Shown here piece by piece: positions 2-2,637 of a DNA stretch of 9,149 bases. The notes below the pieces were generated by a model. It was not told the DNA's origin and did no database searches. It saw only the letters and a list, made by a program, of their open reading frames with translations. The translations under genes and the position numbers were made by a program. Each line of letters opens with the position of its first letter. Within the stretch, counting starts at the first letter, position 1. This stretch comes from Deltaproteobacteria bacterium RIFOXYA12_FULL_61_11 (lineage in GTDB: Bacteria; Bdellovibrionota_F; JAHFAK01; YA12-FULL-61-11): NCBI GenBank assembly GCA_001799195.1, contig MGSU01000151.1:3324-12472 (forward strand), read 5' to 3'.

Positions 2-955
2 CTCCCACCCGGATTCGCGTACCTGCTCCAGGTCCGAGCGACCTGCCTGATCGGCCGCACCAAGACCATCGGCCGCAGCGATGCCGCTGGGACTCCCCAG
101 CTCGTCTTCGATTTCAGCGACCTCAAATGCACGGTCTGCGCTCGCAAGCGCGAGTGCGACCTCTGTCACAACCCCCATGTGGTCAGGCTCGACCACCTCA
201 ACCAGCTGGCGGTGTTCCGGCAACTGCGCGAGCTCTTCGACCGACGCCGAGAAGCCGTGGAACTCCTGCCGGAAGCCGACGCGAATTTCCTCCGCAACCT
301 TGCTACCAAACAGTTCGGCTTGCGCTTCGTCCCCTCGGTGCGTTGCCCGGTGGGCCACGTGGCCGAACTCCTGGGAACCTGCTCGACCGACCCCGACCTC
401 CTGGTCTTCGACCTCCAAGACCTTCCCTGCTCGCGCTGCGCTCATCGCGAGGCCTGTGCCCATCACCGTCACGAGGTTACCTATAAACTTTTCGACGCTA
501 CCCGTACCACGGACCGCTGGGTAGGGCTGAAACTGTTCCCGATCAAACGGTTCGGCAGCTTCGTGCGAGCACTCGCGCATTGTGAAGGGCAGGCTCCGGA
601 GGAACAGCTCCCCCAGCCCTGTCTCGTGGGCTACCTCTATTGCCGCCTCCAAGCCGACGGCACGGTGCTGCCCTGTTGCAAAGGAGCCCGGCTGCCCCTG
701 GGGTCAATCCTGGAACAGGACCTCGAGGCGATCTGGCGCGGTGCGCCGGCCCGCCGTTTCCGTGAACTCGGTTCGAAGAAAGAGTGCCTCTGCGAACGAC
801 TGGCCCTCTTTCCCTGTCGCGAATGCGACAATCGCGGGCTCAACAACGAGATGGTCGCCGCGCTCCAGGCTACTCACAGGTCCTCGGTCCGCGAGGGTGC
901 CGGGGCTGGTCAGGACGAGCGCCTCGCACTTGCTATTGCGAGGCTCGAGCGATGA
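2..955 (+). CDS. SPASM-domain protein, probable radical SAM enzyme, 5'-truncated by the window edge
   Basis: The frame is open from the first full codon (nt 2) to TGA at 953-955, giving 317 visible residues. A GTG at 179 could serve as an internal start, but the sequence before it repeats sequence after it, so the real start is very likely upstream of the window. Numbered from nt 2, residues 15-60 and 115-160 hold two copies of a cysteine-rich unit containing LVFD, then C-x2-C-x5-C-x2-C (C43, C46, C52, C55) or its H-ending version (C143, C146, C152, H155). Residues about 207-275 resemble a SPASM domain: C207, a DG-VLPCC segment (C225, C226), a GSI...IW...RFRE stretch, C262, C264 and a final C-x2-C (C272, C275). 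SPASM domains bind auxiliary Fe-S clusters in radical SAM enzymes that modify peptides or proteins. The barrel itself is not visible and is inferred to lie upstream. The stop overlaps the next start as ATGA, so the two are probably co-translated. Substrate unknown. Confidence 0.8.
   Translation, partial: LPPGFAYLLQVRATCLIGRTKTIGRSDAAGTPQLVFDFSDLKCTVCARKRECDLCHNPHVVRLDHLNQLAVFRQLRELFDRRREAVELLPEADANFLRNLATKQFGLRFVPSVRCPVGHVAELLGTCSTDPDLLVFDLQDLPCSRCAHREACAHHRHEVTYKLFDATRTTDRWVGLKLFPIKRFGSFVRALAHCEGQAPEEQLPQPCLVGYLYCRLQADGTVLPCCKGARLPLGSILEQDLEAIWRGAPARRFRELGSKKECLCERLALFPCRECDNRGLNNEMVAALQATHRSSVREGAGAGQDERLALAIARLER
44..481 (+). repeat. Two diverged cysteine-rich protein repeats, 300-nt period
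   Basis: Within the first gene, nt 44-181 and 344-481 encode matching units with an ungapped 100-residue offset. The aligned positions are C15/C115, VFD 35-37/135-137, DL 40-41/140-141, C43/C143, C46/C146, C52/C152 and C55/H155. The nucleotide copies are clearly diverged, so this is an old duplication rather than a recent tandem repeat. The ligand spacing suggests a metal site (zinc or Fe-S), which is inference. More copies may lie upstream of the window. Confidence 0.7.
940..943 (+). promoter_or_regulatory. Shine-Dalgarno for the radical SAM/SPASM gene at 952
   Basis: GAGG ends 8 nt before the ATG at 952, inside the end of the preceding gene. It supports 952 as the start over the longer open frame that reaches back to 784, whose upstream part merely overlaps the preceding gene. 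It fits translational coupling through the ATGA overlap. Confidence 0.55.
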
Positions 956-2637
956 GAACCTGGCGGCCCTCGCATTTTCCCCGCAACGTCATGCTCCAGA
1001 CCCATTCGCACTGCAATTCCGGCTGCGAATTCTGTCCCTACCCCACCCTGCGCGACACCCTCACCCACGGTTACATGCAGGACGCCCTGTTCACCCGTAT
1101 CATCGAGCAGCTCCGCGGACGGTCGGAGGTGAAGAGGATCCTCCTGTACTTGATGAACGAACCGCTGCTCGATCCCGCTCTGATCGAACGTATCCACCAG
1201 GCCAAAGCCGCCTGTCCCTCGGCCATGGTCCACCTCATGACCAACGGGCTGGCCCTCGACCCGGCCCTGGCTGCCGGTTTGATCGCTTCCCCCCTCGACT
1301 GGGTAGGCTTCTCCGTGCACGCGGCCACCGAGGAGACCTATCGCAGGATCACCGGACGGGAAGGTTACCGAGCCGTGGTCGAGAACATCAAGGACTTCCT
1401 GCGCCTTGCCGGTGCAGCGGGCAAAGACCTCAGCCGCTACGTCATGATCAACCTCACGCGCTCCCCGGAACATCTCGCCGACCCCGAGCGCGACCAAGCC
1501 CTGGCGACCTGGCGAAACCTGGGCATCACCCGGGTGGAGTACTTCGACCATCCCATCAGCAGGGCCGGGAACGTCCCGACCATACAGAAGGCCGAACGCC
1601 AAGGGCTCAACGGGTGCGCCTCAATCTGGGCTACCGAGATGCTCCACGTCCTGTTCAACGGCGACGTCGTCCCGTGCTGCATGGACTGGAGCCGCGAACA
1701 AGTCCTGGGTAACCTGGAGCGGGAAAGCATCGAGTCTCTCTGGAACGGCCCGGCGTATACGTCCTTCCGCAAGCAGCTCTTCGGCCTCAGTCCCCTACCT
1801 CCGGATTTTCTCTGTACCCGCTGTGAGGCTTCCATCCCGATGACCACCGATACCTCCCCCCCTGCCGTCATCGTGTTCGACGCTCCCCTGGGAGAAGACG
1901 ACCTCCATCACGTGCTGCACCGTCTCGAAGGCGAAGCAGGAGAAGAATTCTTCTTCAGTCCTCGCAGCCGCATCGGGGTTCCCGAAACACTGTTCAAATT
2001 CTTGGAATTGCTTGATTCCCACGATCTGCGGCACCAACATCTGGCGCTGAGCCTCAACCGCTACGACCATTTGGACGAAGCCACCCTGCGATCGCTGCGC
2101 GACTTCGGAGTCCAGCGCCTCTACCATTTCGGCGGCAGCTTCTGTGCCGAAACCCTCCGCCGCAGGAACCTCTCCTACACCCCTAGGCAACTGGCCGAGG
2201 TCCTGCAGCGGTGCATCGCGCTCGGCCTGCGCAACGACGTGCAGATCGACCTCTGTTTTCCCGGAGAAACCGAAGAGCAGTTCCGCGAAAGCGTGGCCTT
2301 CGTCGCCCGCCACCACGCCTTGCTCAATGGCACCCTGGAACTCCGCCCCTTCTCTTTCGAACGGGGTTCCGTGTTCCACCTCCACCCCGAACGCTATGGG
2401 CTGATCATCATCGACGATGCCTTCCTCGACGGCTGGCACTACCAGGGCTACAACAATCACAGCTATCGACGTAAGAAACTCAACGAATTCCAAATCGTCC
2501 TGAACCATTTCGGCGTAGCCAATCGGATGCACGCGCTCACCTTGATCGAGCGGCGCGATCCGACCATGGAGGCCGCGGTGATACGGCGCTTGGTAGGTCC
2601 AGAGAGGAGCGAGGTCCATGGAAGGCATCAATCGTAA
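952..2637 (+). CDS. Radical SAM/SPASM protein with a C-terminal second half-barrel
   Basis: The 561-residue product starts at ATG 952, chosen for the ATGA overlap, the GAGG 8 nt upstream and the radical SAM motif close behind. The 4Fe-4S/SAM motif is C21-x3-C25-x2-C28, followed by barrel-like elements (LYLMNEP, HLMTNG, VGFSVHA). Residues about 222-291 form a SPASM-like domain: C222, NGDVVPCC (C242, C243), a GNL...SLWNG stretch, then C288-x2-C291. Family knowledge says such proteins abstract hydrogen from peptide, protein or small substrates and use the SPASM cysteines for auxiliary clusters. Residues about 305-561 are extra: a segment with YDHLDE, FGVQRLYHFGGSFCAETLRRR, and a PGETEEQF motif at 437-444 resembles the second half of a B12-type or Elp3/HemN-like radical SAM barrel, but no second CxxxCxxC accompanies it. 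It overlaps the ribonuclease gene by 20 nt, implying co-expression. The substrate is not identifiable; the radical SAM call is firm. Confidence 0.92.
   Translation: MRTWRPSHFPRNVMLQTHSHCNSGCEFCPYPTLRDTLTHGYMQDALFTRIIEQLRGRSEVKRILLYLMNEPLLDPALIERIHQAKAACPSAMVHLMTNGLALDPALAAGLIASPLDWVGFSVHAATEETYRRITGREGYRAVVENIKDFLRLAGAAGKDLSRYVMINLTRSPEHLADPERDQALATWRNLGITRVEYFDHPISRAGNVPTIQKAERQGLNGCASIWATEMLHVLFNGDVVPCCMDWSREQVLGNLERESIESLWNGPAYTSFRKQLFGLSPLPPDFLCTRCEASIPMTTDTSPPAVIVFDAPLGEDDLHHVLHRLEGEAGEEFFFSPRSRIGVPETLFKFLELLDSHDLRHQHLALSLNRYDHLDEATLRSLRDFGVQRLYHFGGSFCAETLRRRNLSYTPRQLAEVLQRCIALGLRNDVQIDLCFPGETEEQFRESVAFVARHHALLNGTLELRPFSFERGSVFHLHPERYGLIIIDDAFLDGWHYQGYNNHSYRRKKLNEFQIVLNHFGVANRMHALTLIERRDPTMEAAVIRRLVGPERSEVHGRHQS
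2605..2609 (+). promoter_or_regulatory. Shine-Dalgarno for the RNase E/G gene
   Basis: AGGAG lies 8 nt before ATG 2618 and within the last codons of the upstream radical SAM gene. It is the strongest ribosome binding site in the window. It fixes the RNase start at 2618 and so confirms the 20-nt gene overlap. Confidence 0.75.

Follow-up and report, generated by a model that had tools for sequence, protein, structure and literature searches.

The question raised by this locus is whether the 257 codons that continue behind the SPASM domain of a radical SAM protein encode a second radical SAM domain and, if they do, what such a domain could still be doing there. The window, by which we mean the whole stretch of 9,149 nucleotides that was analysed, covers the 3' portion of contig C151, which belongs to a draft genome of 342 contigs with a completeness of 87%. 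The features that matter for the question are listed below in window positions; the giants are multi-module proteins from another phylum, to which we return.

2 to 955, plus strand: 3' part of the upstream gene, the SPASM end of the local giant-2 counterpart
952 to 2637, plus strand: whole ORF, 561 aa, radical SAM plus SPASM plus cluster-less barrel
952 to 1563, plus strand: N-terminal radical SAM barrel with CNSGCEFC at residues 21-28 (Pfam PF04055, E 5.6e-23)
1615 to 1824, plus strand: SPASM-type auxiliary-cluster domain with C222, C242, C243, C288 and C291 (Pfam PF13186, E 5.4e-13)
1864 to 2541, plus strand: cluster-less six-stranded radical-SAM-type barrel and C-terminal extension, residues 305-530
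1867 to 1932, plus strand: barrel strand 1 (AVIV) and helix 1, with the RGCxxxCxxC loop of about 21-24 residues missing between them
2134 to 2166, plus strand: GSFCAETLRRR, the strand-4 site, GVES in intact modules (G 98%, E 95%), with E replaced by G395
2251 to 2283, plus strand: strand-5/helix-5 turn, DLCFPGETEEQ, with FPGE kept and C435 in place of the G (98%) before it

The ATG of the 561-residue ORF overlaps the stop codon of the upstream gene (ATGA, 952-955) in the manner of an operon. Counted from this ATG, codon 305 falls on position 1864 and the reading frame runs to 2637, exactly where the original prediction had placed the extra domain; the domain examined here is residues 305-561 (window 1864-2634). 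The part in front of it, residues 1-300, is apparently an intact and canonical radical SAM/SPASM enzyme. The Pfam matches span residues 19-151 for Radical_SAM and 226-291 for SPASM, the CX3CX2C motif is formed by C21, C25 and C28, and all five SPASM cysteines are present and invariant in a two-row alignment with genome G036. PADLOC gave a viperin match to the N-terminal barrel alone (34 bits), which we read as general radical SAM likeness and not as viperin identity.

Residues 305-561 alone match positions 62-165 of the 166 in PF04055 with an E value of 2e-5, at a score of 25.2 bits that lies below the curated cut-off of 29.5 bits, while a profile made from four intact B12-radical-SAM modules of one protein from another phylum, without the window sequence, matches them at E 3e-15. 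On these sequence comparisons the Radical SAM match exceeds chance, and the claim of a second, cluster-less radical SAM domain behind SPASM stands. A larger profile aligns nearly without gaps from profile position 48 (strand 2) to the profile end, and homology detectable in the sequence begins at strand 2. Residues 293-345 score no better than shuffled sequences against B12 and radical SAM profiles, and the idea that strand 1 is a relic of a B12 domain was dropped since the stretch scores like the shuffles against the B12 profile. Several B12-type or HemN-type NCBIfam models match the domain weakly, among them a HemN-type profile (E 1e-4) and NF006064 (21.4 bits against a cut-off of 504). The domain had been proposed to be of B12 or of Elp3/HemN type; the former is the likely one, as it groups with B12-radical-SAM modules, whereas a HemN or Elp3 origin was dropped because the profile matches are merely weak. 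With the domain as query, phmmer obtained no meaningful match in the PDB; a comparison with PHROGs was likewise negative and no relative turned up on viral contigs; the phage records gave one partial match (23.5% identical).

The predicted fold is in line with this assignment. AlphaFold models the domain with pLDDT 78.8 and pTM 0.77 from an alignment of 9 rows of true radical SAM proteins, which biases the model towards that fold, and places strands at domain residues 2-5, 28-31, 59-64, 83-89, 123-130 and 156-162 with helices between them; strand 1 corresponds to residues 306-309, within AVIVF. In VIA-align, domain residues 1-229 superpose on the B12-dependent enzyme MgmA (9ccb) with Z 15.7 over 208 residues at 3.7 A, followed by MiaB (Z 15.0), TsrM (13.5) and RimO (13.4), and Foldseek recovers these families too, at best with 4e-6. 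The superpositions on MgmA, MiaB and RimO start at residue 1 of the model and extend to about residue 220. The matched stretch of RimO starts at its residue 139 and its CX3CX2C falls slightly later, within the stretch that begins at 142 in the profile alignment, so the domain model begins with strand 1 itself. A full-length model, whose alignment holds no homologous rows before helix 2 of the domain, predicts a helix at 315-326 and a strand at 333-335 once more, in the positions of helix 1 and strand 2, and a short strand at about 305-309 with low confidence. Altogether, a complete six-stranded barrel that has lost nothing but the loop for the cluster and the B12-binding domain in front is a well-supported model, and together with the sequence homology it makes the domain a member of the radical SAM superfamily by fold and descent. 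The structural check that had been suggested for the domain thus returned a radical SAM fold, but not the half TIM barrel (strands 4-6) that had been expected, since model and superposition contain all six strands. The fold is shared over nearly the whole domain with the B12-dependent enzymes MgmA, TsrM and OxsB, and the six-stranded barrel also with MiaB/RimO and HemN/Elp3-type enzymes (Z 12.8-15.0). The latter are catalytic and carry CX3CX2C, unlike the barrel described here, and we know of no such enzyme fused behind SPASM.

What the barrel has lost was read from an alignment with 64 intact modules, in which columns kept in at least 75% of the modules were regarded as conserved. The domain skips 21-24 columns after strand 1 and before helix 1, exactly at the RGCxxxCxxC of the intact modules. 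All three cluster cysteines are missing, and neither CX3CX2C nor any other three-cysteine loop follows strand 1. Also lost are a conserved R (94%), N (84%) and K (94%), the strand-2 D (97%, here P337), the G (98%, here F393) and E (95%, here G395) of GVES in strand 4, and the strand-5 G (98%, here C435). The strand-2, GVES and strand-5 positions are presumably SAM contacts, going by what is established for the superfamily. G386 (100%), S396, L402, G425, FPGE (436-439), W495 and R506 are retained, so that the pattern is one of retained turn and packing positions and lost cluster and SAM positions. B12-dependent radical SAM enzymes possess a B12-binding domain, CX3CX2C, GVES and fnD, all of which are here either absent or substituted; SPASM stands directly in front of the barrel, where a B12-binding (Rossmann) domain would be expected. 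With cluster loop, SAM residues and B12 domain all lost, canonical radical SAM chemistry should be impossible for this barrel. The original prediction was thus largely right in its observations, as GSFCAETLRRR (residues 395-405) and PGETEEQF (437-444) are found and no CxxxCxxC occurs after residue 291, although its GxRxxxF-like segment is not present in the domain. In its interpretation it was half right: the second barrel is indeed degenerate in both cluster loop and conserved catalytic residues, but it is not half a barrel.

The domain contains just three cysteines, C398, C421 and C435. One may ask whether these ligate a metal or cluster unconventionally at the barrel's top, so that the domain would bind metal or SAM through new ligands. 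C398 and C435 do lie just behind strands 4 and 5, where intact modules have S (88%) and G (98%), and probably on the face that binds SAM in the relatives; such a function is nevertheless very improbable, as no two of the cysteines are within six residues of each other and R, D, GVE and G, all conserved in the intact modules, have been lost too.

Relatives of both halves are found in phylum FEN-1099, which we take to be Lernaellota. Each of the seven genomes of this phylum, to which G036 belongs, encodes an N-terminal radical SAM/SPASM domain that shares 41-44% identity with residues 10-300 and has B12-radical-SAM modules behind it. In six of the seven, giant 1 is a single frame of 2,363-2,606 aa in which radical SAM/SPASM is followed by four [B12-binding + radical SAM] modules, each of which has CX3CX2C, as opposed to the one dead barrel of the 561-residue protein; in the seventh (G061) the frame is broken into pieces of 407, 1155, 671 and 535 aa. 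Giant 2, present in several FEN-1099 genomes, has about 1,950-2,100 aa and three modules followed by a C-terminal radical SAM/SPASM part. The loci are:

Giant 1: L035:12211-19287, L072:3366-10457(-), L073:5452-13035, L074:9473-17293, L075:10450-17565, L076:9456-16823
Giant 2: L037:4953-10997(-), L078:7251-13571(-), L079:8542-14775, L080:1531-7377(-), L106:9328-15540

Beside giant 1 (L035:1387-10500 and L044:374-8196) we observed radical SAM/SPASM domains in fusion with glycosyltransferase and carbamoyltransferase-like proteins, together with two NAD-epimerase-like genes, and to judge from their gene content these surroundings look like a glycan or secondary-metabolite cluster. B12-radical-SAM proteins with CX4CX2C instead (CPWHRCTYC, CAWGRCHFC, CGWGHCTFC) were seen at L040:5362-7170(-) and L103:4278-6254(-) and 14283-16271(-).

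In a tree, each module position of the giants forms its own clade across genomes, which indicates that module order and number are old. The domain joins module 2 of giant 2 with support 94/80 (94/90 without distant rows), although the AU test also allows an origin from module 4 of giant 1 (p 0.217), and it sits on a very long branch of 3.7-4.3 changes per site; alignments A5 and A6, in which the modules were split between both barrels, had been discarded. Descent from a B12-radical-SAM module, perhaps module 2 of giant 2 or module 4 of giant 1, is likely. When 386 varied genomes were searched with the domain, the matches better than 1e-8 came from the giants, from a tandem array in G383 and from one protein with a single module in the same genome as the window. 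No second cluster-less copy was found in these genomes, nor was a close homologue that shares the fusion of radical SAM/SPASM and barrel.

It is conceivable, though we think it unlikely, that the barrel is a decaying relic, left when a deletion joined the tail of a B12-radical-SAM module onto a radical SAM/SPASM gene, and drifting since without function. The very long branch and the odd amino-acid make-up of the domain would fit this, as would the CX3CX2C retained in every giant module of the seven FEN-1099 genomes and the counterpart in G383 and G392, from a third phylum, where the radical SAM/SPASM protein (44-45% identical) is a short stand-alone ORF without a barrel. Against drift, all 257 codons are open in frame and both halves follow the codon preference of the contig; through the barrel the in-frame bias is like that of its neighbours, at +0.23 per codon compared with -0.30 (SD 0.05) for random synonymous codons. 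Such a normal preference would argue for coding kept over a long time, while being no substitute for a selection test. The hydrophobic strands and the FPGE turn are retained, a full barrel is still predicted, and the sequence has diverged far more than a recent accident that happens to lack a stop would allow. The long branch fits decay and a new role alike, and any purifying selection on the barrel is conjectural.

The assembly itself bears on a further alternative, a joining of unrelated pieces in a metagenome contig by assembly or binning. It is fragmented, as its contig count and completeness indicate, and the contig contains two runs of N (L034 529-620 and 3229-3323), the second of which ends one base before the window. 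The two halves, however, meet within a single open frame that contains no N, and their codon use is similar. The best further match elsewhere in the genome reaches only 26% identity, which rules out the misjoining of a near copy, and the FEN-1099 giants pair the same N-terminal domain with B12-radical-SAM modules downstream. Of all the explanations weighed here we consider such an artefact the least credible, with hardly any chance of being correct.

The contig also informs about the neighbouring gene. Before the window it encodes one B12-radical-SAM module tail, one complete module and a radical SAM barrel, and the complete module of the upstream gene joins the module-3 clade of giant 2 with support 100/99. 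By this placement, the upstream gene is taken to be the local counterpart of giant 2. Its insert before SPASM (window 120-480) has the cysteine-rich spots KCTVCARKRECDLCH and PCSRCAHREAC, and giant 2 has a similar spot, QQCRECELIEHC; these spots resemble a finger or cluster site.

We think it rather probable that a retired B12-radical-SAM module makes up residues 305-530, one that no longer catalyses and likely serves as a scaffold for docking or for holding a substrate. It would descend from a [B12-binding + radical SAM] module that stood in tandem with others in a giant, next to a radical SAM/SPASM enzyme. The B12-binding domain would have been lost, the [4Fe-4S] loop excised between the first strand and the first helix, and the SAM-holding residues substituted, with the six-stranded barrel and its C-terminal extension retained. 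Chemistry would then be carried out by the N-terminal radical SAM/SPASM part, which has all expected cysteines, and the dead barrel may act as a covalently attached scaffold. The gene overlap suggests joint production with the B12-radical-SAM/SPASM protein encoded directly upstream, which could be the docking partner. That the barrel is kept as a structural or substrate-binding module, as the original prediction had also supposed, is the most likely reading, though an inferred one.

The arrangement can in some respects be compared to Dph1-Dph2, two radical SAM partners of which one has no working SAM pocket and is yet needed (PMC11048331). The likeness is an analogy only, as Dph1-Dph2 belongs to a non-canonical family, its partners are separate subunits and Dph2 still binds a cluster (PMC11048331). 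In the open full-text literature, to which the search was confined, we found no description of an inactive, degenerate, pseudo- or tandem radical SAM domain. A barrel that retains its fold and has lost its cluster and SAM sites would be annotated as an enzyme, because annotation goes by the fold profile. As for the giants, their three or four complete B12-radical-SAM modules make them look like multi-module radical enzymes undescribed in the open literature. It is tempting to speculate, although we hold it to be quite unlikely, that they work like an assembly line, with modules in fixed order on one carrier-bound or peptide substrate, and that the barrel in the window is such a module turned into a non-catalytic docking unit; if so, it would be the radical-chemistry counterpart of the inactive domains of modular synthases. 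The multi-module giants may be a more interesting discovery than the dead barrel. If the latter is kept by selection, it would be a clear case of a radical SAM pseudoenzyme in one chain with a radical SAM enzyme that is apparently active, and its own recognition of a substrate or partner would become testable.
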